The notes under the pieces: model-generated | Database searches by the model: none | What the model saw: only the letters and a program-made list of their open reading frames with translations | What the model was told of the DNA's origin: nothing | Position numbers and translations under genes: made by a program | Source: an uncultured Desulfobacteraceae bacterium | Lineage (GTDB): Bacteria > Desulfobacterota > Desulfobacteria > Desulfobacterales > Desulfobacteraceae | Length of the DNA: 39,922 bases | Direction of reading: 5' to 3' | Assembly: GCA_913041495.1 (NCBI GenBank) | Contig: CAJWHT010000030.1 | Location: 1 to 39,922, forward strand | Part shown: one piece after another, positions 26,925 to 36,499 of the stretch | Position numbering within the stretch: the stretch's first letter is position 1 | Layout of the letters: each line of letters starts with the position of its first letter

Positions 26925-29282
26925 CTATTTGCTGACAGTATTTCGTTTTTGCTCAAGCTGAACGATTGAAGGTGTAATGAAGATCAACAATTCATTACGG
27001 TCGTCCGTCTCTGCTTTGGTGGAAAACAGATAGCCAAGCAGAGGGATGCCTCTCAACAGCGGGATTCCGTCATCATCGTTACTTTGGGAGGTTTTGACCA
27101 CCCCACCGATCACCACGGTTTCATTATTGTTGATCAAAAGTTCCGTCTCAGCCTCATTGGTCGAGAGTACAGGAACCTGATCACCTTGCAGCTGTATGAA
27201 ACTTGCCACATCGTCCTTTTTCAGGTTAACGGTCATGGATATGCGTTTGTCCGGGGTGACATGGGGGGTCACTTCCAAAACCAGTTCAATCTCTTTGTAT
27301 GAAACAGAGGAACCGCCGGTGTCATCACGCTCCAGATAGGCATATTCCTGGCCCTGCTTGATCACGGCTTTCTTGTTATCCAGTGTCAATATCCTGGGAG
27401 AAGATACGATTCTTACATCTCCTAATTCTTCGGAAGCCTCCAACTGAGCATTCAATGCGGTCATGGAGGAGCCAAACAGCCTGAAAAAGGTAAAATCCCC
27501 TGCGATACCCGTAGTGGCTTCATTTATTGAAACATTGAAATCATCTATATACCCGGACGTATTGCCGGAGGCGTTGGACAAATTCCAGTCCAGCCCGAAG
27601 CTTCTGGAAAACTCCTTTGTCACCTCCACGACTCTTGCCTCAATCATAATCTGAGGTGTCACTTGGTCCAGTCGGAAAATCAAATCATGGGCCTGGTCGA
27701 TTTTCTTCTGGGTATCTGTAATAATGATGGTATTTGTCCTGCTGTCCACGGACACACGCCCTCTGTCAGGAGTAATAATCAATGAAACCTGGGGCAAAAT
27801 ATCCGCTGTTGCGTCAGAATAATTAATGGGAATATATTCAGTCTGCAACGGCTCCAGGGCAACTTGCTGCTCAGCAGCTTTCTTGGCCGCGGCCAGCACC
27901 TCCTGCCGGGTCTGTTCTTCACGTGTCAGAGAATCTGTTGTGGCAATCCGGATAACATTGCCTTCCACCTTTTTGCCCAACCCGTTCATCTTTAAAACGA
28001 GATCCAACACCTGATCCCAGGGTACAGGTTCTTCCAGGCTGAGGGTAACTTTGCCCTGCACATCGCTGTCCACGGCAAAGTTCTTGCCGCTGACACTTCT
28101 CAAGATCCGAAATACATTTTTAATGTCCGTATCGTAGAAATCCAGCTTGATCTTCTCACCGGTATACACGGGAGCTTCCATCCCCGGCAGAGAGGGAGCT
28201 TTGACTGGATTTGACGCGACCTGACTTACGGCGACAGCCCCTTGTTCCGGAACCGCTGCCAGACTCCTGGAACTAAGGTTTACCGGCTTAGTCTCAGCCA
28301 TATAGGTATCTTCTCCTGACACCACATCCAATTTATTCTTTTCAAATTCAGGGGGGGATACGGTTGAAGGATCAAAGCGCATATGAATCCCGGCGTTGGT
28401 CTGGACCACACGAAACGGCACCTGATCCCTGGTTCGGATAATAATCCTGGCATCCTTTTCGTTTCCGGAAATCGTATCGGGAACCACCTTTTCCACAGCA
28501 GAATTAAAGTATCGGGTCAGCAGCGGACGCTGGTGATGCTCGGCAATATTTGTATTAAACAGAACCAAAGCCAGTTGTTCCTGGTCCACCTGCCGGGTTT
28601 CGTAACGGATCGGATGGTTTGTCATGACCCGGATTTCCGAATGCCCCGAAGGTTTGGTATCAAACTCGATGCCGGTGACCTCCGCGGTCTCATTTGAAAT
28701 GTCCGTTTCTTGAACGACGGCACCCATCTCTTCCGGAGCACCAGAATCAATGCGTCCTTTATCCGTTAAGGTTTCAACCTCAGGGGTTGCTGTTGCCTGA
28801 GGGGTACCCATCAGAATAATGCCAATACGTTCGCCATCTTCCTGAACTTTATACGGAAGGTCCTGGGTCAACAAAATTTCTACCTTGACCGTGGTTTCCT
28901 CTTTGTCTGCATAGCTTGTCTTTATGGCAGACACACGCGTATCGGAAGCAGTTTCAGGTACAAATTCGGGCACAAAACGGGTGTTTGGCAAATACACGGA
29001 AACGCCAAAGGGAAACGGTTGCTTAATGGAAGTATACTCTAAGGGAGATGAGCCTTCAATCCAGACCGCAAGCTGTTCCTTCTGAGGGACAAGCCGGATC
29101 TTTTGAATATGCTTCATCGCGGGCATGGCCTCGCCCACCGCTTCGGACTGGACGGCAGCACCACCTTCAGGCGAAGCATCTTCCAAGTGACGTGCAGTAC
29201 ATCCCGAGAGCACCGCCACTAACAGCAGAATGCCGACCCCCACTGTCACTTGACTTTTCAACGCAGACAGATATCCTCCCAT
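26925..29282 (-). CDS. pilQ: Type IV pilus secretin PilQ
   Basis: A 785-residue outer-membrane secretin that forms the gate through which the type IV pilus passes. Order: signal peptide with a lipobox-like LSGC (Cys28), two AMIN domains (about 60-165 and 205-300) that bind peptidoglycan, an N0/STN-type domain (KLDFYDTDIKNVFRILRSVSG, about 380-450), an N1 domain (YIPINYSDATADILPQV...DTQKKIDQA), and the secretin core (VRIVSSPRILTLDN, VPVLSTNEAETELLINNNETVVIGGV, GIPLLGYLF, LLIFITPSIV). ATG at 29282 has GGGGAG four bases upstream; ATG at 29300 would overlap pilP by 17 bases. The free cysteine suggests PilQ may itself be lipidated, which is uncommon. Confidence 0.94.
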   Translation of the reverse strand: MGGYLSALKSQVTVGVGILLLVAVLSGCTARHLEDASPEGGAAVQSEAVGEAMPAMKHIQKIRLVPQKEQLAVWIEGSSPLEYTSIKQPFPFGVSVYLPNTRFVPEFVPETASDTRVSAIKTSYADKEETTVKVEILLTQDLPYKVQEDGERIGIILMGTPQATATPEVETLTDKGRIDSGAPEEMGAVVQETDISNETAEVTGIEFDTKPSGHSEIRVMTNHPIRYETRQVDQEQLALVLFNTNIAEHHQRPLLTRYFNSAVEKVVPDTISGNEKDARIIIRTRDQVPFRVVQTNAGIHMRFDPSTVSPPEFEKNKLDVVSGEDTYMAETKPVNLSSRSLAAVPEQGAVAVSQVASNPVKAPSLPGMEAPVYTGEKIKLDFYDTDIKNVFRILRSVSGKNFAVDSDVQGKVTLSLEEPVPWDQVLDLVLKMNGLGKKVEGNVIRIATTDSLTREEQTRQEVLAAAKKAAEQQVALEPLQTEYIPINYSDATADILPQVSLIITPDRGRVSVDSRTNTIIITDTQKKIDQAHDLIFRLDQVTPQIMIEARVVEVTKEFSRSFGLDWNLSNASGNTSGYIDDFNVSINEATTGIAGDFTFFRLFGSSMTALNAQLEASEELGDVRIVSSPRILTLDNKKAVIKQGQEYAYLERDDTGGSSVSYKEIELVLEVTPHVTPDKRISMTVNLKKDDVASFIQLQGDQVPVLSTNEAETELLINNNETVVIGGVVKTSQSNDDDGIPLLRGIPLLGYLFSTKAETDDRNELLIFITPSIVQLEQKRNTVSK

Positions 29283-29283
29283 A

Positions 29284-30084
29284 CTACTCCCCACCTTCAT
29301 CGTTATTAAATTTTATTTCTTGGAATTGTTCCCTGGACTTTCCCTTGAAATCCTTGACATACTCTTTGACAATTATGCTGTTGGCATTAATGGCCGTTAC
29401 CTGTCCGCCGTTTCTGCCCATATAGGTACCCAATCGCACCTCATATCCCTTACCGCTGGCTTCCTCTACCATGGCAATGGATCGGCCCTGCATCTGGATG
29501 ACGGCCACCAGTTTGATCTGGCTGAGTTCCATTTTCTCAAGAGGGGTAAGCAGACGTGCAGGTTTTTCCTCTTTTTCTTTGGACGTTTCATCCGGTTCCG
29601 ACAAAAGAGGTATAAACGGATCTATCCTGCCTTTAAAGTCATAAGGTTCTATTTTAGCGATGCTGTCATCAAGTGGCATATCCTCAGCTGAAACAGGCTG
29701 CATAGATTCGGCAAGCTGCTTTTCCCGTTTTACAAGATTCTCATCAACAGGTGCTGTTTCCCCCGCTGGCACCTTTTGTGGCGCAATTTCGGTTTTGTCC
29801 CCAATTGTGGAACCCGCCTGGGGCGTGCCGGATGATTGTAATTCGGAACGATCCGGCACACCGGAGGAAATATCTTCAGCCATCTTCCCTCCATCACTGT
29901 TTTTTGCCTTAGCAATAGATTCCTGGGGAGCAGTGGATTTTAAAATCTTCTTTGAAACAATCTTCGGCGGCATCTTTTCAGGTGCGGAAGGCAAAGGCTC
30001 ATCACACCCCAAAAGACTAAAGAAGAGGATTGCCAAACCTGTTAAAACAACCCTGTTACCCTTATACATTGTCTCCGGCATCAT
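29284..30084 (-). CDS. pilP: Type IV pilus inner-membrane lipoprotein PilP
   Basis: A 266-residue lipoprotein with lipobox FSLLGC (Cys27), a long disordered Pro/Glu/Ser-rich stretch (about 30-160) and a C-terminal PilP domain. That domain has the usual landmarks: GRIDPFIPLL, then MELSQIKLVAVIQMQGRSIAMVEEASGKGY and VRLGTYMGRNGGQVTAI. PilP links the PilNO inner-membrane complex to PilQ. It is longer than typical PilP (about 170-180 residues) because of the linker. Start overlaps the pilO stop by four bases (ATGA). Confident by domain and by position between pilO and pilQ. Confidence 0.9.
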   Translation of the reverse strand: MMPETMYKGNRVVLTGLAILFFSLLGCDEPLPSAPEKMPPKIVSKKILKSTAPQESIAKAKNSDGGKMAEDISSGVPDRSELQSSGTPQAGSTIGDKTEIAPQKVPAGETAPVDENLVKREKQLAESMQPVSAEDMPLDDSIAKIEPYDFKGRIDPFIPLLSEPDETSKEKEEKPARLLTPLEKMELSQIKLVAVIQMQGRSIAMVEEASGKGYEVRLGTYMGRNGGQVTAINANSIIVKEYVKDFKGKSREQFQEIKFNNDEGGE

Positions 30085-30740
30085 TTTTTCCGTTTCTTTT
30101 TGCCCTTCTTACCATTTTTATCCTTATCCGGGGGCTCATCAGAAAACATATAGGTGACAGCAGCGCACTTCATTGTTATAAATCCCGGCGTTTTAGGGTC
30201 CGTACTAATCTCCACATTCTGAATATTGACAATCCGGTTCATCCGAGCAACCCGGTAAAAAAAGTCGGCCATCTGCTGATATCTTCCGCTCACAACCATG
30301 GCCAGGGGAATTTCTTTATAGAATTCTTTGTTCACAACGGGATCGGGTTGGAACAGGCTGAAGGTCAACCCCGCACGTTGTCCGGCCGTGGATACCCCCG
30401 TCAGCAAAGACGGCAACTCTTTTTTATCGGGCAACGCCTTCATGGCAATATTAAAATTCTCCTGGGCCTCGGCCATCTCTTTTTCATACTTAGCCAGAGA
30501 TCTGGCTTTTATTTTGAACTTCTGCAGTGTCGCTTCCCGGGTTTTGAGTTCAGCGCTGGCCGCATTCAACGTCTCTTGTTTTGGGGCAAGAAAAAAATAG
30601 TAATATCCGCCGCCCATCAACGCAAACGTCACAAGGCAAATGAGCAGACGCTGTATTTTAGTAAATTTTCCGATTCTGACAAATGCAGCAGATATCGTCT
30701 GATCCACCTTAATACGGATGTTTTTCTTTTCATCAGCCAT
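30081..30740 (-). CDS. pilO: Type IV pilus alignment protein PilO
   Basis: A 219-residue bitopic inner-membrane protein: short cytoplasmic N-terminus, one membrane helix (about 31-51), a coiled coil (about 55-105), and a ferredoxin-like periplasmic domain (FSLFQPDPVVNKEFYKEIPLAMVVSGRYQQMADFFYRVARMNRIVNI). It ends in a very lysine-rich tail. PilO dimerises with PilN and joins the pilus motor to the outer-membrane secretin. Start codon overlaps the pilN stop (TAATG). Confidence 0.92.
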   Translation of the reverse strand: MADEKKNIRIKVDQTISAAFVRIGKFTKIQRLLICLVTFALMGGGYYYFFLAPKQETLNAASAELKTREATLQKFKIKARSLAKYEKEMAEAQENFNIAMKALPDKKELPSLLTGVSTAGQRAGLTFSLFQPDPVVNKEFYKEIPLAMVVSGRYQQMADFFYRVARMNRIVNIQNVEISTDPKTPGFITMKCAAVTYMFSDEPPDKDKNGKKGKKKRKK

Positions 30741-31318
30741 TACTTTTTTTCCTCTGAAGCGTCAGGTTTATTCGAAGGCTTCTTTTTTTCACAAACCAGT
30801 TCAAATTCCTTCAGGTAGACATCGTCAAAGGATTTGGTTTTTGAACGCTTTAGGTCCACACTTGCAAACAGGGCAGAAGTTTCAAGATTTCGCATGAAGT
30901 CAGCAATGGTTGGATTATCAAAGGCAATACCTCTTAATGACACCTGCGCTGCATTCACCGTCAGTTTTTCCAGCCACATGCGTTCCGGTACCATTTGGTC
31001 AGCCAGCTCTTCTAACAGGATTTGCTGCTCGTCTTTTCGAGTGGCAAGGGAGGCGACAATATCAAGTTTTTCAGTCAACACCTTGAGTTTCTTTTTTATC
31101 TGTGTCACCCGATCCGCCTTTTCTTTATACGAGGCAATCTGATTGTTTACCGACGCGATCCTGCTATTTGTGATCTTAATTTTGCGGTCAACTTCCAGAA
31201 TATACCAAACCATCGCAAAGCTGACCAAAATTACGGAAAGCAGGAAAATAGACACCTGCCGCCGGATATTTTCCTTCCTACGGGCCAGCCTGAATGGCAG
31301 AAGATTAATTCGTATCAT
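30740..31318 (-). CDS. pilN: Type IV pilus assembly protein PilN
   Basis: A 192-residue bitopic protein. The N-terminal MIRINLLPFR motif is the PilN segment that docks on PilM; then a membrane helix (about 23-43), a coiled coil and a small periplasmic alpha/beta domain (MWLEKLTVNAAQVSLRGIAFDNPTIADFMRNLE). Start overlaps the pilM stop by four bases (ATGA), consistent with coupled translation and a 1:1 complex. Confidence 0.93.
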   Translation of the reverse strand: MIRINLLPFRLARRKENIRRQVSIFLLSVILVSFAMVWYILEVDRKIKITNSRIASVNNQIASYKEKADRVTQIKKKLKVLTEKLDIVASLATRKDEQQILLEELADQMVPERMWLEKLTVNAAQVSLRGIAFDNPTIADFMRNLETSALFASVDLKRSKTKSFDDVYLKEFELVCEKKKPSNKPDASEEKK

Positions 31319-32364
31319 TTATCGTCAACCCGCCTCATGGCCAGACCCAGGGCAATTGGCGCTTGAAGCCTGACCCGCATGAGCTCTTCATCAGAATATT
31401 GTTTGTCTTGTACGGACAGGCTTGCAAAAGGATCAATCCCCGCAACCGGGATACCCAACTCAGATTCAAGTGCCTGGTATAAATTTTTCACATACCCTCC
31501 CCCGCCGCTTATAATTACCTTCTGGACCCTCTCGTCATTGGTGTTGGCTTCAAAGGTGTGAACAACTTCGCAAATCTCAGCACACCAGGCATTGGATATG
31601 CTTTGAAGCAGGTCAGCCATTCCGTCAGGCGGATCAGCCAGCCCGCGCAGAACGTTGTTGCAGGTTGTTAGATCCATACCGTAGCGTTCAGCCAACCCGT
31701 CCGTGATCTGGCTGCCCCCGATCATCATATCCCGCATCATAATTGAATTGTTGTCTTTGAGTATATTCAAAGAGGTTTTGGACGCCCCGACATCAAGTAG
31801 CAGCGTCACCTGCTCGGGATCATTGTCCGGCAGGCTTTCATAAATATTTTGCAAGGCAAATGTATCCACGTCGATGATACTTGCTTTCAACCCGGCCATC
31901 TGTATCAACTCAATGTATTCGGCAACCAGATCCTGTTTCACCGCCACCAGCAGTACGTTCATCTGGTCAGGCGAAAATTCGCTGTCCCCAAGAACTTGAT
32001 AATCAATATTCACATCGTCGATATCATAGGGGATATATTGTTCAGCCTCGGATCGGATGGTCTTGTGAAGTTCTTTTTCCGGCACCTTCGCCGTATTGAT
32101 GGTTTTAATGACCACGGAATGCCCCCCCGTGGAAATAGCCACCTTTTTTTCTTTAATTTTCTGGGATTTAAACAGGTTGCGAATGATTTCGGCAAGCCCT
32201 TCCATATCCATGATCCGGCCTTCCGAAATGGCACCGGGTTCCACAGGGGCCATACCGAACTTCAGCAGCGAGTTTCCCTTTTTAGCGAACTTGAGTTCTG
32301 CCACCTTAACAAAGGTTGACCCGATATCTAGACCCACAAGGTGATTTTTTCTTCCAAAAACCAT
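31315..32364 (-). CDS. pilM: Type IV pilus actin-like protein PilM
   Basis: A 349-residue cytoplasmic actin-fold ATPase homologue that binds the PilN tail and connects the pilus to its motor. It has the phosphate-1-type motif GLDIGSTFVKVAEL near the N-terminus, YIPYDIDDVNIDYQVLG (a hallmark of PilM), LLDVGASKTSLNIL and SGGGGYVKNL. The start at 32364 follows AAGGAA, and the family begins MVFG or similar; a longer frame to 32529 covers the AT-rich promoter region and is unlikely. First gene of the pilMNOPQ operon. Confidence 0.95.
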   Translation of the reverse strand: MVFGRKNHLVGLDIGSTFVKVAELKFAKKGNSLLKFGMAPVEPGAISEGRIMDMEGLAEIIRNLFKSQKIKEKKVAISTGGHSVVIKTINTAKVPEKELHKTIRSEAEQYIPYDIDDVNIDYQVLGDSEFSPDQMNVLLVAVKQDLVAEYIELIQMAGLKASIIDVDTFALQNIYESLPDNDPEQVTLLLDVGASKTSLNILKDNNSIMMRDMMIGGSQITDGLAERYGMDLTTCNNVLRGLADPPDGMADLLQSISNAWCAEICEVVHTFEANTNDERVQKVIISGGGGYVKNLYQALESELGIPVAGIDPFASLSVQDKQYSDEELMRVRLQAPIALGLAMRRVDDK

Positions 32365-32588
32365 ACTGCTAATTTCCTTAACCAGGCTGACAAAAGGGGA
32401 TATGAACGAGTACCTGCTCGCACATTTGGTATTGCTAACTCGTATTTTTATTACTATAATTTGATACGATATGTGCGCAAAGTCAAGTATAATCGTTCTT
32501 TTAAAGGACTGAATACCAAATGAAAACAAGAGTTGTCAATCCAAAAAAACCTTAATTATGAATTTTACTTCCCAAAAACACTCTTAAT
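32365..32588. promoter_or_regulatory. Divergent promoter region between pilM and the sensor kinase
   Basis: A 224-base AT-rich gap. On the plus strand TTGCTA (32432-32437), a 17-base spacer and a perfect TATAAT (32455-32460) form a good sigma-70 promoter towards the kinase gene. On the minus strand TTGCGC (32475-32480), a 16-base spacer and TATAGT (32453-32458) form a weaker promoter towards pilM. The two -10 boxes overlap, so polymerase could not use both at once. Confidence 0.6.
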
Positions 32589-34019
32589 GTGAAAAAAATA
32601 CCCCACAAAACCAATCCGTCGACAGGCACCCGGCCCTTTGTTCTGGTCAAGGCATTTACTATTTCAAGCCTGATCGTCATGCTGACGGCAACCCTGGTTA
32701 TCGCCGCCCTGAACGCCACCTGGGTCAGAAATATACTTCTTGAAAAGAGCAAAGAGTACAACAGGCTTCTGGTGGAAAACCTGAACCATCAGATATTTTT
32801 GAGATTCGTGGCCCCGGTGGTCTTTAAACATGGCGAGATTAAGCTCAGGGAAAAAAGCCAGCATCAGCTGCTTGATGCTGTGATAAAATCCACCATCCAC
32901 AGTTTTCATGTTGAAATGGTCAACATTTACGGCACGGACAACATCATCGGATACAGCTTTAACAAGAGCCGGATCGGCCTTGAAAATGCCGGCGGTGTTC
33001 ATTATGAAAAGGCCATGAAGAACGAGACCACGTCTAAACTCATCCAGAAGGGAAGTTTTCTGGAGTTGATGTTCTGGTTTCCCAAAGAAACGAAAATCGT
33101 CACCTTTGCTCCGCTTGTGCAGGAAGTTCAACTGTCCCGGGCCAAAGGCAGCAATGTTATCGGCGTCATTGAAATTGTCCGGGATGTATCTGACGATTAT
33201 CAACAGGTCTTCAAGCTCCAGGGATTGATTGTGGCCAGTTGTGCCACGATTATGGCCATTTTATTTCTGGTGCTCAGGTTTGTGGTCAAGTACGGGGAAC
33301 GGATTATTGAACAGCGGGCTGAGGAACGGCTGAGGCTTGAAGAAAAACTGCGGCAAACAGAGCACCTGTCGGCTATCGGAGAAATGACCGCAGGGGTTTC
33401 CCATGAAATTCGAAACCCCCTTGGCATCATCAAAAGTTCCGCACAGTTAATGAAAAAGAAGATGGCCCGGCTGGACCCTTCCTCGAACATCCCGGATATC
33501 ATTGTTGAAGAGTCCAGCCGCCTGGACCGTATCATTAAGGATTTTCTTGATTTTGCAAAACCCAAGATCGCGGATCTGCGGCCCTGCGCCATTGAGGAGA
33601 TCATTGAAAAGAACCTGGTATTCTTAGCCCCCCAGATAGAGGAGGAACAGGTCAGGATCATCAAAGATTTTAAAAACAACCTGCCTGAAGTCCTGGCTGA
33701 CCCGGCCATGCTTTACCAGGCCTTTTTAAATATCTTTCTCAATTCCTTCCAGGCCATGGACGAAACAGGGCAGATCACCATCGCCACCCGATATGATCAA
33801 GGCGAGATTCTCATCAGTTTCACAGACACAGGTGCCGGGGTTGATCCCGAAATCCTTAAAAAAATATGGACCCCGTTTTTCACCACGAAAGATACCGGAA
33901 CCGGCCTGGGACTTGGCATCATTAAAAATATCATCGAAGCCCATGACGGACGGATTTCCATATCCAACAGTCCCTCGGGGGGAACTGTTGTGGAAGTGGC
34001 CCTGCCGGCCGCGGATTAA
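32589..34019 (+). CDS. Membrane sensor histidine kinase
   Basis: A 476-residue kinase with a membrane helix (about 25-45), an extracytoplasmic sensor region (about 46-210), a second helix (about 212-233), a coiled-coil linker (IEQRAEERLRLEEKLRQTE), HisKA with phosphoacceptor H272 in GVSHEIRNPLGIIKSS, and an HATPase domain (NIFLNSFQAM, DTGAGVD, GTGLGLGI). It has no obvious HAMP or PAS. It belongs to the class of kinases that pair with sigma-54 response regulators (AtoS/ZraS/PilS-like), and such a regulator is encoded 21 bases downstream. The start is GTG with no Shine-Dalgarno sequence visible, so the exact start is uncertain. Position next to pilM makes control of pili one possibility. Confidence 0.9.
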   Translation: MKKIPHKTNPSTGTRPFVLVKAFTISSLIVMLTATLVIAALNATWVRNILLEKSKEYNRLLVENLNHQIFLRFVAPVVFKHGEIKLREKSQHQLLDAVIKSTIHSFHVEMVNIYGTDNIIGYSFNKSRIGLENAGGVHYEKAMKNETTSKLIQKGSFLELMFWFPKETKIVTFAPLVQEVQLSRAKGSNVIGVIEIVRDVSDDYQQVFKLQGLIVASCATIMAILFLVLRFVVKYGERIIEQRAEERLRLEEKLRQTEHLSAIGEMTAGVSHEIRNPLGIIKSSAQLMKKKMARLDPSSNIPDIIVEESSRLDRIIKDFLDFAKPKIADLRPCAIEEIIEKNLVFLAPQIEEEQVRIIKDFKNNLPEVLADPAMLYQAFLNIFLNSFQAMDETGQITIATRYDQGEILISFTDTGAGVDPEILKKIWTPFFTTKDTGTGLGLGIIKNIIEAHDGRISISNSPSGGTVVEVALPAAD

Positions 34020-34040: not shown

Positions 34041-35429
34041 TTGGAAAACATATTAATTGTAGACGATGAAAAGCACTACCCCATGATCATCGGAGAAGTG
34101 CTGGCAGAAGAAGGATACCATACATTTACCGCATCCAGCGGCATGGAAGCCCTGGATATCCTGGATACCCAGTTGATTGACCTGGTTCTCAGCGATGTCA
34201 AAATGCCGGGGATGTCCGGTATTGACCTGCTGGAACGGATCAAGGAAATCAAACCGGATCTACCCGTCATCATCATGACTGCATTCGGCAGTGTGGAAAA
34301 GGCCGTTGAAGCCATGCACAAAGGTGCCTATACCTTTATCCTCAAACCCTTTGAAAATGATGCCCTGATCGCTCACATTGCCAAAGCCCTGTCCATGTAC
34401 AGAATCGTTCAGGAAAATATACTGCTCAAAGACGCCATGCGTTCCCGGTACCAGTTTGACAATATTATCGGTAAAAGCCAGCCCATGCAGGAACTCTACG
34501 GTGTGATACAAAAGGTCGCCCCCACCCAGGCCACGGTGCTTGTGGAGGGGGAAAGCGGCACCGGCAAAGAGCTGGTATCAAGGGCCATTCACTACAACAG
34601 CCTGAGAAAAGACCAGTCCCTGGTTGCCGTGAACTGCTCCGCTTTTGCCGAATCGCTCCTGGAAAGTGAACTGTTCGGCCACGAGAAAGGGGCTTTCACC
34701 GGGGCCGTGAATATGAAAAAAGGCAGGTTCGAGCTGGCCCACAAGGGGACCTTGTTTCTGGATGAAATCGGTGAACTGCCCATGCCCCTCCAGGTAAAAC
34801 TGCTCCGGGTTCTTCAGGAAAAAACCGTTGAGCGGGTGGGCGGCACCTCGTCGATCCCCGTGGACTTCAGACTCATTGCCGCCACCAATAAAACCCTTGA
34901 AGACGAAGTGCGCAATGGCAATTTCAGGGAAGACCTCTACTACCGCCTCAATGTGGTGAAAGCGGTGATGCCTCCCCTGCGCGACCGGCAAGAGGATATC
35001 CCCCTGCTCATTGACCATTTCATAAAAAAATACACCACCGGCCCCGAGTCCGGCGGTACCATTAAAAGCATCGACAAAGAGGCGATTCAACTGTTGTGCG
35101 ACTATGAGTGGAAAGGTAATGTCCGGGAACTTGAAAACGTCATAGAACGATCGGTTATCCTCTCCAGCACCGGCCGGATCACCGCTTCTGATCTGCCGTC
35201 TCACATGCGCCAGACCAATACCAACACCCTGCGTCTCGACGGTATCCCTGAAGGAGTGGGGTTATCTGAGACCCTCGCCGCAGTGGAAAAACGCATGATC
35301 CAGCGCGCCATGGCAATGTCGGGAAATGTCCAGACCAAAGCCGCCCAGATTCTGGGTATCGGTAAAAGCGGACTGAACCAGAAACTCAAAAAATTCAACC
35401 TGGATAAAGAACTCAATCTCAAAAAATAG
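34041..35429 (+). CDS. Sigma-54-dependent response regulator (NtrC/AtoC type)
   Basis: A 462-residue bacterial enhancer-binding protein. Receiver domain with acidic pocket (VDDE) and phospho-aspartate D52 (LSDVKMPG). AAA+ domain with Walker A GESGTGKE (170-177), an intact sigma-54 contact loop GAFTGA (217-222) and Walker B TLFLDEIGE. C-terminal Fis-type helix-turn-helix (NVQTKAAQILGIGKSGLNQKLKKF). The start codon is TTG, supported by AAAGGAG (34026-34032) at good spacing and by the receiver starting ENILIVDDE. It pairs with the kinase upstream. Palindromes and a sigma-54 promoter lie directly after its stop, which makes it the prime candidate activator of that promoter. Confidence 0.94.
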   Translation: MENILIVDDEKHYPMIIGEVLAEEGYHTFTASSGMEALDILDTQLIDLVLSDVKMPGMSGIDLLERIKEIKPDLPVIIMTAFGSVEKAVEAMHKGAYTFILKPFENDALIAHIAKALSMYRIVQENILLKDAMRSRYQFDNIIGKSQPMQELYGVIQKVAPTQATVLVEGESGTGKELVSRAIHYNSLRKDQSLVAVNCSAFAESLLESELFGHEKGAFTGAVNMKKGRFELAHKGTLFLDEIGELPMPLQVKLLRVLQEKTVERVGGTSSIPVDFRLIAATNKTLEDEVRNGNFREDLYYRLNVVKAVMPPLRDRQEDIPLLIDHFIKKYTTGPESGGTIKSIDKEAIQLLCDYEWKGNVRELENVIERSVILSSTGRITASDLPSHMRQTNTNTLRLDGIPEGVGLSETLAAVEKRMIQRAMAMSGNVQTKAAQILGIGKSGLNQKLKKFNLDKELNLKK

Positions 35430-35463
35430 GAAAAATCAAGTCCTATGAACTGAATCCGGGAAC

Positions 35464-35481
35464 GGTTCATTATTTTGAACC
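35464..35481. promoter_or_regulatory. Candidate enhancer-binding site 1
   Basis: GGTTCA-TTATTT-TGAACC, perfect 6-base arms with a 6-base spacer, 34 bases after the response-regulator stop. It shares the core GTTCA-N6-TGAAC with site 2. Its centre is about 209 bases upstream of the -24 element of the sigma-54 promoter, a normal range for enhancer sites. A further lone TGAAC half-site lies at 35449. Confidence 0.75.
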
Positions 35482-35543
35482 AAGCTAAAAATCACATACT
35501 TACAGCGTGTTACCCCAACCCCACCTTTTCAGCCGGCATCAAG

Positions 35544-35561
35544 AGTTCAAAATTTTGAACT
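35544..35561. promoter_or_regulatory. Candidate enhancer-binding site 2
   Basis: AGTTCAAAATTTTGAACT is a perfect 18-base palindrome with the same GTTCA-N6-TGAAC core as site 1. The two centres are 80 bases apart, and this one is about 129 bases upstream of the -24 element. Confidence 0.78.
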
Positions 35562-35678
35562 TTATCCCCGTATTTGAAGCGGCAACTGAGATGTAAAAAG
35601 AAAGACCGCAATCGCGCCAAGAAAAATCAATGTGTTGTTTCGGATAGTTAAAATAAAAAGGAAGGTTTTTAGATACTA

Positions 35679-35695
35679 TTGGCAAGGGAATTGCA
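35679..35695 (+). promoter_or_regulatory. Sigma-54 promoter (-24/-12)
   Basis: TTGGCAAGGGAATTGCA matches the sigma-54 consensus TTGGCACG-N4-TTGCA with one change in the upstream box. GG (35681-35682) and GC (35693-35694) are separated by exactly ten bases. Transcription would start near 35706. Confidence 0.85.
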
Positions 35696-35705
35696 GATTA
35701 GTATC

Positions 35706-35779
35706 TTCACTAACCAAGCGTTAGTTTTTTCATCTTTTTTTCCTTTTCTAAAAAAGGCTGCCAAACGGCAGCCTTTTTT
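35706..35779 (+). ncRNA. Predicted sigma-54-dependent small RNA
   Basis: The expected transcript runs from about 35706 to the T-run of the terminator, roughly 74 bases. It contains a small hairpin (ACTAAC 35709-35714, loop CAAGC, GTTAGT 35720-35725), a pyrimidine-rich single-stranded stretch (35724-35749, including TTTCCTTTT, complementary to AAGGA-type ribosome-binding sites), and a perfect terminator hairpin. No ATG, GTG or TTG lies inside it and the next gene downstream is on the other strand, so it should be non-coding. Existence is inferred from promoter plus terminator; it has not been shown to be expressed. Likely regulator: the enhancer-binding protein at 34041. Confidence 0.65.
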
Positions 35780-35781
35780 AG
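35748..35781. terminator. Bidirectional intrinsic terminator
   Basis: CTAAAAAAGGCTGCC (35748-35762) and GGCAGCCTTTTTTAG (35767-35781) are perfect 15-base reverse complements around an AAAC loop. The T6 run on each strand lets it end both the predicted small RNA (+) and the minus-strand operon whose last gene ends at 35801. Confidence 0.95.
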
Positions 35782-35800
35782 TTTAGGATATTGGGGGATA

Positions 35801-36499
35801 TTATTCTCCAGCCACCCTGGCTTCTGCAATCGCCTTGTACATAGAAGACTGGTTTTCCGTTACGATCTTTTCATACATCTTCAGGCTGGATGCCATATCA
35901 TTTTCAGCAGCATAAATGGATGCCAGGGCGAATCTGGCTTCATCCTTGAGCAGGGAAGAGTGCCCCTTTTCAATGCGAAGATAATAGAACTTCGCCTTTT
36001 GCACATCATCTTTGATCAACGCCAGATTTCCCAGGGCAGACAGGATGAAATTTTCCATCCCGGCGGTATCGTCAAGTGTCTCTAAAGCTTTGCCGTAAAT
36101 CTCATAGGCCTTATCGTAATCCTTGGCGTCAAAGCATATTTTTGCATAGGTCATCAACGCCATCCGCCCGGCACTGGTGTTGGCATATTCGTCGAGAACG
36201 GTATCAAACTGCGCTTTTACAGCCTCATACGCTTTTTGGGGGTCCTGATCCTTTTGAAGAGATTCGCCATAGGCCGTGGTGGCCTTGGCCACCAATTGAG
36301 ACGCCTGGACCTCAGACCGTTTGAAGTTATAGATAACGGCTGAAAAAATTACGCAAACCACAACCACGGCACCGAAAATCAGCCCCAGTTGTTTCTTGTG
36401 GGAAGCGGCAAAGTCCAATCCCCTCACAAGCGCTTCCTGAAAAGGATCCATCTGTTCCAGTTCCCGTTTCCGTTCGTTTGATACGCCTTGATCTGCCAT
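35801..36499 (-). CDS. Tetratricopeptide-repeat protein with N-terminal membrane anchor (YfgM-like)
   Basis: A 232-residue protein: a charged cytoplasmic N-terminus, one membrane helix (about 38-58, QLGLIFGAVVVVCVIFSAVIY) and TPR-like helical repeats (about 70-225, with AYEIYGKALETLDDTAGMENFILSALGNLALIKDDVQKAKFYYLRIE). The layout resembles the YfgM/TPR_21 family, in which the enterobacterial member contacts the SecYEG translocon and periplasmic chaperones. That role is not proven here. AGGA sits only one base from the ATG, a poor ribosome-binding site. Last gene of the iron-linked minus-strand run, 38 bases after the SH3 gene. Confidence 0.75.
   Translation of the reverse strand: MADQGVSNERKRELEQMDPFQEALVRGLDFAASHKKQLGLIFGAVVVVCVIFSAVIYNFKRSEVQASQLVAKATTAYGESLQKDQDPQKAYEAVKAQFDTVLDEYANTSAGRMALMTYAKICFDAKDYDKAYEIYGKALETLDDTAGMENFILSALGNLALIKDDVQKAKFYYLRIEKGHSSLLKDEARFALASIYAAENDMASSLKMYEKIVTENQSSMYKAIAEARVAGE

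Follow-up and report, generated by a model that had tools for sequence, protein, structure and literature searches.

What does the 371-bp gap between the gene of a sigma-54-dependent response regulator and the gene converging on it contain? The window analysed here, the whole of contig C30 (39,922 nucleotides) in the 5.77-Mb draft genome of a sulfate-reducing bacterium of the Desulfobacteraceae, raises this question at its right-hand part, where the regulator gene ends at 35429 and the converging gene occupies 35801-36499 on the minus strand. A sequence-only reading had placed in the gap an enhancer-regulated sigma-54 promoter and a short non-coding RNA beside a two-component pair; the gap, two palindromes, the -24/-12 element and a perfect 15-bp terminator are all present as described, and comparative evidence supports the interpretation. 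Our results make it likely that the kinase and regulator encoded upstream switch on a small RNA (sRNA) that blocks the translation of outer-membrane porins, probably without Hfq, and the conservation of the RNA family makes the existence of the RNA gene itself close to certain. Along the plus strand, the putative activator sites come first, namely the palindromes GGTTCATTATTTTGAACC (35464-35481, two mismatches relative to a perfect 16-mer core) and GTTCAAAATTTTGAAC (35545-35560, a perfect 16-bp palindrome), followed by the -24/-12 promoter TGGCAAGGGAATTGC (35680-35694, with GG at 35681-35682 and GC at 35693-35694). The predicted RNA of about 75 nt (35706-35780, plus strand) would start about 12 nt past the -12 element and end within the U run of the terminator; folding gives it a 5' hairpin, CTAAC-CAAGC-GTTAG (35710-35724), which some copies lack, an unpaired pyrimidine block of 24 nt, TTTTTTCATCTTTTTTTCCTTTTC (35725-35748), which conservation and complementarity also support, and a terminator stem-loop of 15 perfect base pairs (35748-35781, arms 35748-35762 and 35767-35781). 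The fold of 35706-35781 reaches -27.8 kcal/mol, compared with -8.5 +/- 2.3 in shuffled sequences (z = -8.4), and a covariance model of the family matches 35704-35783 with an E-value of 6e-12, this sequence having belonged to the model's training set. A simple terminator scan listed the 15-bp stem on neither strand because the U run sits inside the stem, and a sigma-70 scan returned a weak site (35679-35707, 9/12) that overlaps the sigma-54 promoter.

The complement of the pyrimidine block, GAAAAGGAAAAAAAGATGAAAAAA, reads as a Shine-Dalgarno sequence, a spacer, an ATG and two lysine codons (codons 2-3). The block is strongly conserved in Desulfobacteraceae copies, with variation in the length of its U run. 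The predicted RNA combines the two features by which a base-pairing sRNA can be recognized in sequence, a terminator of its own and a conserved single-stranded block antisense to the start of an mRNA. In 19 genomes of the same genus, 137 sites lie within three mismatches of this pattern, RNA genes included, compared with 30 for a reversed control pattern; genes were read mainly at sites with one or two mismatches. Almost all of the one-mismatch sites that are not RNA genes (18 of 19, spread over 15 genomes) start porin-like genes, the only non-porin being a methyltransferase-like gene (L179), and in 17 of these 19 the mismatch is a G:U pair. In other genera of the family, where 34 non-self sites with up to two mismatches were examined and about 15 further two-mismatch sites set aside, predicted outer-membrane barrel proteins start at all six perfect non-sRNA sites and at seven of the 11 one-mismatch sites, with a TonB receptor (L246) starting at an eighth, and at five of the 17 two-mismatch sites. 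These barrel counts include one from a set of eight perfect sites in other genera, the other seven of which are RNA genes (L387 being assigned by its antisense peptide and its contig), and also cover 11 of 12 further sites that were read there, only two of them clear barrels. Nine barrel proteins, genus porins among them, fall into at least two groups with no detectable similarity beyond the signal peptide; phenylalanine, a C-terminal signature of outer-membrane proteins, is the last residue of each. As separate observations, three-mismatch sites were seen at the starts of two P-II (GlnB-like) genes (L012, G000:C4:31436, in the genome of the window, and L314, G087:C60:44658) and of a chemotaxis-receptor-like gene (L013, G000:C64:25767), with a -24/-12-like element just upstream of both L012 and L013. 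At L251 (G027:C472), two similar tandem genes have a two-mismatch start site in common, and the first of them matches a jacalin-lectin Pfam model and, weakly, aerolysin.

Because those sites had been found by complementarity, we also collected porins by protein similarity and compared their duplex energies with those of the starts of other genes. The porin set lost three of its 55 starts, for which the chosen position lay inside the gene, and the clean background consisted of 259 of 290 starts, after removal of those fetched by complementarity. Of 26 porins known from homology only, 21 form a stronger duplex than any of the 259 background starts, and 24 fall in the best 5%. The clean background duplexes have a median of -9.7 kcal/mol and a best value of -18.3, and the porins of the window's own genome with a known start (seven of eight places) range from -18.0 to -25.9 kcal/mol. 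The porin mean with the native block is -24.3 kcal/mol, as opposed to -13.6 +/- 1.6 for 100 shuffled blocks, the best of which reached -20.5, so that none of the 100 shuffled RNAs matched the native mean.

Outside the Desulfobacteraceae, the block commonly takes the form AACCTAATAATTT(C/T)TTCATCTGTTYTCCTCCTTAA (in RNA, CAUCUGUUYUCCUCCUUAA), antisense to a start of the type TTAAGGAGG...ATGAAGAAATTATTAGG. A search for AAGGAGGAAAACAGATGAARAAA in 13 other-family genomes found 28 places in 11 of them, 10 being copies of the RNA. Outside these, perfect sites number two and belong to divergent porin-like genes in one genome (G079, 23/23), and both one-mismatch sites are barrel genes, in G081 and in G066 (where the start triplet is AGG). 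At two mismatches, three of five sites resemble outer-membrane proteins, whereas at three mismatches most of the nine sites have no such relation. The porin start in G081 carries exactly the private variant of that genome's own RNA. When eight targets were paired with six RNAs, the cognate RNA was the best partner for six of the eight, the exceptions being the two G079 genes, which pair slightly better with RNAs of other non-Desulfobacteraceae families; since most of these targets had been found by complementarity, the cross-pairing shows a lineage match and is not an independent test. These observations suggest a natural co-variation of the RNA and its targets.

The distribution of the RNA is that of a family belonging to one order. 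Direct matches to the window DNA occur in 49 of 98 relatives (19 of 19 in the same genus, 30 of 40 in the rest of the family, none of 39 in other families), with Desulfobacter, Desulfobacula, Desulfotignum, Desulfospira and Desulfobacterium among the named carriers. A pattern scan of a species-genome collection returned 76 stretches, of which 75 come from Desulfobacteraceae, Desulfobacterales or unplaced (delta)proteobacterial bins; the remaining one, in a Firmicutes bin, is shorter and probably due to chance. In the alignment of 56 copies on which the covariance model (R1) was built, RNAalifold retained the terminator stem only, with changes on both sides at seven of its nine predicted pairs. 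Within the order, the model finds matches in 78 of 145 genomes, spread over many families (E up to 0.01, with E-values that are approximate and weaker matches that are tentative); in a phylum sample it matches five of 198 genomes (E up to 0.001), all five within the same order, with search filters that lose weak matches. Under the search pattern used, the layout of the family is visible in 19 of 20 model-hit regions, which hold 22 copies (three regions have two each), and was not seen in the other, L291. Pairs of copies 0.3-2.7 kb apart, each copy with its own sigma-54 promoter, are found in L286 (G171), L288 (G068) and L275 (G141). A genus of the family (g2) with the same barrel starts, mostly without a BLAST match to the RNA, was considered as an sRNA-free control and dropped: it is not a safe one, because the covariance model found the RNA in one of its genomes (G019). 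On this comparative evidence, the RNA is a genuine sigma-54-dependent sRNA family of the order.

For promoters and palindromes we scored 134 distinct copies, all from loci fetched through the sRNA, each with a terminator and sufficient sequence upstream; this selection removed 27 of 162 candidates, including at least one genuine copy whose promoter is normal (L019). Scored against TGGCA-N6-TTGC, the best site reaches 9/9 in 117 copies, 8/9 in 12 and 5-7/9 in five, so that 129 of the 134 have a near-perfect sigma-54 promoter (8-9 of nine specified bases); shuffled sequences reach 9/9 in 0% and 8/9 in 0.7% of cases. The promoter lies at a median of 48.5 nt from the block. Of the four copies scoring below 7/9, three resemble chance hits in genes and one, L046 (G049:C77, about 35027-35100), is a true copy; here the block almost abuts the regulator coding sequence, with neither a -24/-12 element nor a palindrome, an arrangement due to either deletion or misassembly. 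Where at least 340 nt of upstream sequence was available (128 copies), at least one palindrome with up to three mismatches is present in 116, compared with 1.3% in shuffles: 50 copies have one, 62 have two, four have three and 12 have none, and the commonest spacings in the two-palindrome copies are 91 bp (14 copies) and 76 bp (13 copies). These putative sites lie in the interval, 80-250 bp upstream, where activator sites would be sought. The counts are not independent because the copies are related to one another; the same design is shared, however, by unlinked paralogues within one genome and by copies from many families.

The genome of the window provides such a pair of paralogues. On contig C18, a second copy is flanked by genes for an AsmA-family protein and an iron alcohol dehydrogenase. 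It has the common palindrome AGTTCAAAATTTTGAACTTT, TGGCACACAAATTGT as its -24/-12 element, TTTTTTCATCTTTTTTTCCTTTTCTAAA as its block, and a terminator. Exact GTTCAAAATTTTGAAC occurs at two places only in the 5.77 Mb, each before an RNA gene, and sites with two mismatches comprise the other window palindrome and four more, against one in the control (both strands counted). The earlier idea of a single RNA locus thus holds for the RNA gene itself and fails for its being single-copy: palindromes and a promoter also precede unlinked copies, which therefore make up a multi-copy family.

The association of the RNA with the regulator is close in the family and looser beyond it. Homologues of the regulator (E <= 1e-120) exist in 56 of 59 relatives, the best match being merely 46-48% identical in three of them (G063, G065 and G067). 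In 18 of the 19 same-genus genomes, the regulator gene is followed on its own strand, after a few hundred bases, by the RNA, the two being on separate contigs in the other genome (G007); among the remaining Desulfobacteraceae with the regulator, it adjoins in 13 of 16 and is absent in L227, L253 and L254. Seventeen downstream regions from other families include eight with the RNA, eight without it and one divergent case (L271, in G078), in which the regulator homologue is followed by palindromes and a -24/-12-like element and then by another RNA block, which may belong to a diverged RNA directed at different targets. Some genomes in which the regulator stands without an RNA have a model match elsewhere (G068, G076, G080, G070, G060 and G073), and in G068 and G076 every RNA copy has a palindrome. 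The sequence-only reading had proposed, among its checks, to look beyond regulator orthologues for a conserved promoter, palindromes and terminator; these were found in most Desulfobacteraceae checked and in eight of 17 other-family genomes. From this arrangement we infer that the regulator binds the palindromes.

Several observations weigh against a porin-directed RNA governed by this regulator. Five of the homology-only porins (L366, L369, L333, L353 and L363) do not beat the best background start, and two non-porins found by complementarity pair as well as porins do (L173, -26.9 kcal/mol; L179, -24.8). Among two-mismatch non-self sites, only eight of 23 in the genus are porin starts (two of them in the window's own genome) and 15 are not; in other genera, five of 17 are barrel starts and 12 are not. 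Block-matching barrel starts were found in five of the 13 other-family genomes (G079, G081, G066, G181 and G071), in a search that used one common pattern for all genomes, the remaining eight included. The naming of the porins rests on signal peptides, the C-terminal phenylalanine and weak family matches, with DESULF_POR1 below cut-off in most of the proteins scanned and Porin_4 above cut-off in one; a search of PDB sequences with a seven-porin alignment matched no solved porin, and returned designed proteins (over a 25-residue stretch, E down to 1e-6) together with lysenin and an unrelated synthase (E 0.4-0.7). On the regulatory side, 12 of the 128 copies have no palindrome, although chance hits in genes are among these 12, and eight of the 17 other-family genomes have the regulator without the RNA next to it. 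Finally, the targets have strong A-rich ribosome sites and MKK starts, and MK[KNR] starts occur in only two genes of the clean background; the match could therefore partly reflect abundant secreted proteins generally.

Taken to its end, this last point would make the RNA a general anti-Shine-Dalgarno RNA, matching porins merely through the A-rich ribosome sites and MKK starts of abundant secreted proteins. The block does include an anti-Shine-Dalgarno sequence (CCUUUU or CCUCC), certain non-porin starts pair well with it, and the non-porins among the two-mismatch sites of the genus (15 of 23) would be expected. However, the block also spans the spacer, the AUG and the codons that follow; the native block binds background starts hardly better than shuffled blocks do (-10.0 versus -9.3 +/- 0.5 kcal/mol); the barrel genes that start at perfect sites in other genera form, together with the genus porins, at least two groups with no detectable similarity; and a private variant is common to RNA and porin in G081. 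We regard this explanation as unlikely. Less probable still, the RNA would be a sponge like CrcZ or RsmZ, and the conserved pyrimidine block the site at which an RNA-binding protein attaches. CrcZ likewise lies downstream of its sigma-54 regulator, and the block is unpaired and rich in U; on the other hand, each RNA has a single block and no repeated motifs, the window RNA has neither A-rich CA motifs nor GGA loops, the spacing from CAUC to CC fits the distance from AUG to Shine-Dalgarno, and the block varies together with porin starts in several lineages. It is very improbable that the region is simply the 3' untranslated region of the regulator gene with a shared terminator: a symmetric terminator between two converging genes would fit this, but copies remote from the regulator gene retain promoter, block and terminator, and most retain the palindromes. 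The minus strand, which reads as a ribosome site and an MKK start, has next to no chance of being the conserved one as a tiny gene starting AAAAGG-N8-ATGAAAAAA, since the frame has a median of seven amino acids over 129 copies, its commonest peptide occurs in only 10, and the sigma-54 promoter points the opposite way in 129 of 134.

Repression of porins by the RNA therefore stands as the reading we hold likely on the strength of sequence comparison. In the circuit we propose, the sensor kinase would read a periplasmic or envelope cue and phosphorylate the adjacent AtoC-type regulator, which would bind both palindromes, some 150 and 230 bp ahead of the start, and fire the sigma-54 promoter. The product would be the RNA of about 75 nt, with its 5' hairpin, unpaired 24-nt pyrimidine block and terminator, and the block would pair over 20-30 nt with the Shine-Dalgarno sequence, start codon and first codons of porin mRNAs, so that translation stops; the unlinked second copy, under the same palindrome, would add dose. 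The length of the pairing probably replaces Hfq. The Pfam model of Hfq (PF17209) matched none of 59 relatives, the window's own genome included, in a search that did not extend to ProQ and other chaperones, and was positive in five of 14 control genomes, Escherichia coli among them. RNA copies are present in many Desulfobacterales genomes of this Hfq-negative sample, and long pairing without Hfq is therefore the mode to be expected. A wider proposal, which we hold only tentatively, is that an Hfq-free line from kinase through sigma-54 regulator and sRNA to porins runs throughout the order, that the perfect-palindrome regulon of this genome consists of sRNA genes alone, and that the RNA originated when the start region of a porin gene was copied in inverted orientation, the RNA and porin starts having changed together since; in several families the other strand of the RNA reads TTAAGGAGGAAAACAGATGAAGAAATTATTAGG (Shine-Dalgarno, ATG, MKKLLG). 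The circuit would give widespread sulfate reducers a concrete case of outer-membrane control, with a named regulator, sites, RNA and targets. It would also be a natural example of extended sRNA pairing where no Hfq was found, in which the co-variation of RNA and targets makes the pairing testable.

The sensor histidine kinase (32589-34019, plus strand; Pfam HisKA and HATPase_c) has two membrane segments predicted from hydropathy (residues 23-41 and 214-232), flanking a presumed periplasmic domain of about 170 residues, and its nearest NCBIfam models are AtoS and ZraS, with scores below cut-off. The regulator (34041-35429, plus strand; Pfam Response_reg, Sigma54_activat and HTH_8), the presumed activator, consists of a receiver, an AAA+ domain with GAFTGA at residue 217 and a Fis-type helix-turn-helix. 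The converging gene encodes a TPR protein (Pfam TPR_21 above cut-off) with one membrane segment by hydropathy, which we take to resemble YfgM; given its symmetry, the terminator stem-loop could also serve this gene. Divergent from the kinase gene are pilM, pilN and a pilQ-type secretin gene (26925-32529, minus strand). The sequence-only reading had set the RNA in this pil context and had noticed neither the family of copies nor the antisense block; we found no tie to the pil neighbours, and the antisense block points instead to outer-membrane porin mRNAs.

How does this RNA compare with known systems? Like CbrB-activated CrcZ of Pseudomonas, which lies downstream of its sigma-54 regulator, and the LuxO-activated Qrr RNAs of Vibrio, it is a sigma-54 sRNA tied to a response regulator, and it is multi-copy as the Qrr RNAs are. 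CrcZ sequesters Hfq/Crc and Qrr uses Hfq, whereas no Hfq was found in the 59 genomes here and the target class is another. In enterobacteria, MicA, RybB, MicF, MicC and OmrA/B pair at or near the Shine-Dalgarno sequence or start of porin mRNAs and depend on Hfq. Rfam gave no match in the window at gathering score; at a relaxed threshold, the RNA matched only below family thresholds (29.9 bits versus 54, 27.4 versus 55), and it stayed under the covariance threshold of GlmY, CrcZ, Qrr and every other Rfam family. GlmY of the Enterobacteriaceae, with QseEF/GlrKR, is described in the accessible literature as having a sigma-54 promoter, activator sites, a neighbouring two-component pair and a role in the cell envelope (PMC6075780, PMC8745638). 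The window RNA resembles it in its sigma-54 promoter, putative activator sites, adjacent two-component pair and proposed envelope role; as far as the source describes it, GlmY works via RapZ on glmS, not on porins (PMC7073468), and in Proteus, by the account available, it precedes the kinase gene in one operon, unlike the window RNA. Closer in lineage, accessible reports on Desulfovibrio vulgaris describe two sigma-54 regulators, DVU0679 with Dv_sRNA2 and DVU0653 with a non-coding RNA, each targeting an RNA directly downstream of its own gene (PMC3333781, PMC4641369), a likeness to the window RNA in that a sulfate reducer's sigma-54 regulator has a downstream RNA. The function of Dv_sRNA2 is given there as unknown, and DVU0679 orthologues are reported in some Desulfovibrio, in Desulfotomaculum acetoxidans and in Symbiobacterium (PMC3333781). 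This comparison is one of description, model R1 having matched nothing outside the order among 198 genomes of the phylum; our results suggest a role for the kind of RNA that these regulators switch on, which the literature, so far as accessible, leaves open. The main text of a bacteria-wide study of sigma-54 regulons, by term search, has neither "sRNA" nor "small RNA". NcS25 pairs at or near the Shine-Dalgarno sequence and start of a porin mRNA, with no sigma-54 motif detected upstream in the account available (PMC10117139). With NcS25, MicA, RybB, MicF, MicC and OmrA/B the window RNA shares complementarity to porin starts, and it differs from all of them in its promoter. Both sigma-54 sRNAs beside their regulators and porin-pairing sRNAs are already known; the RNA family of this order, of which the sequence-only reading knew no description, was found neither in Rfam nor among the matches listed from the open-access literature searched (most subscription papers and bioRxiv preprints lying outside it), and appears, within that scope, to be new.
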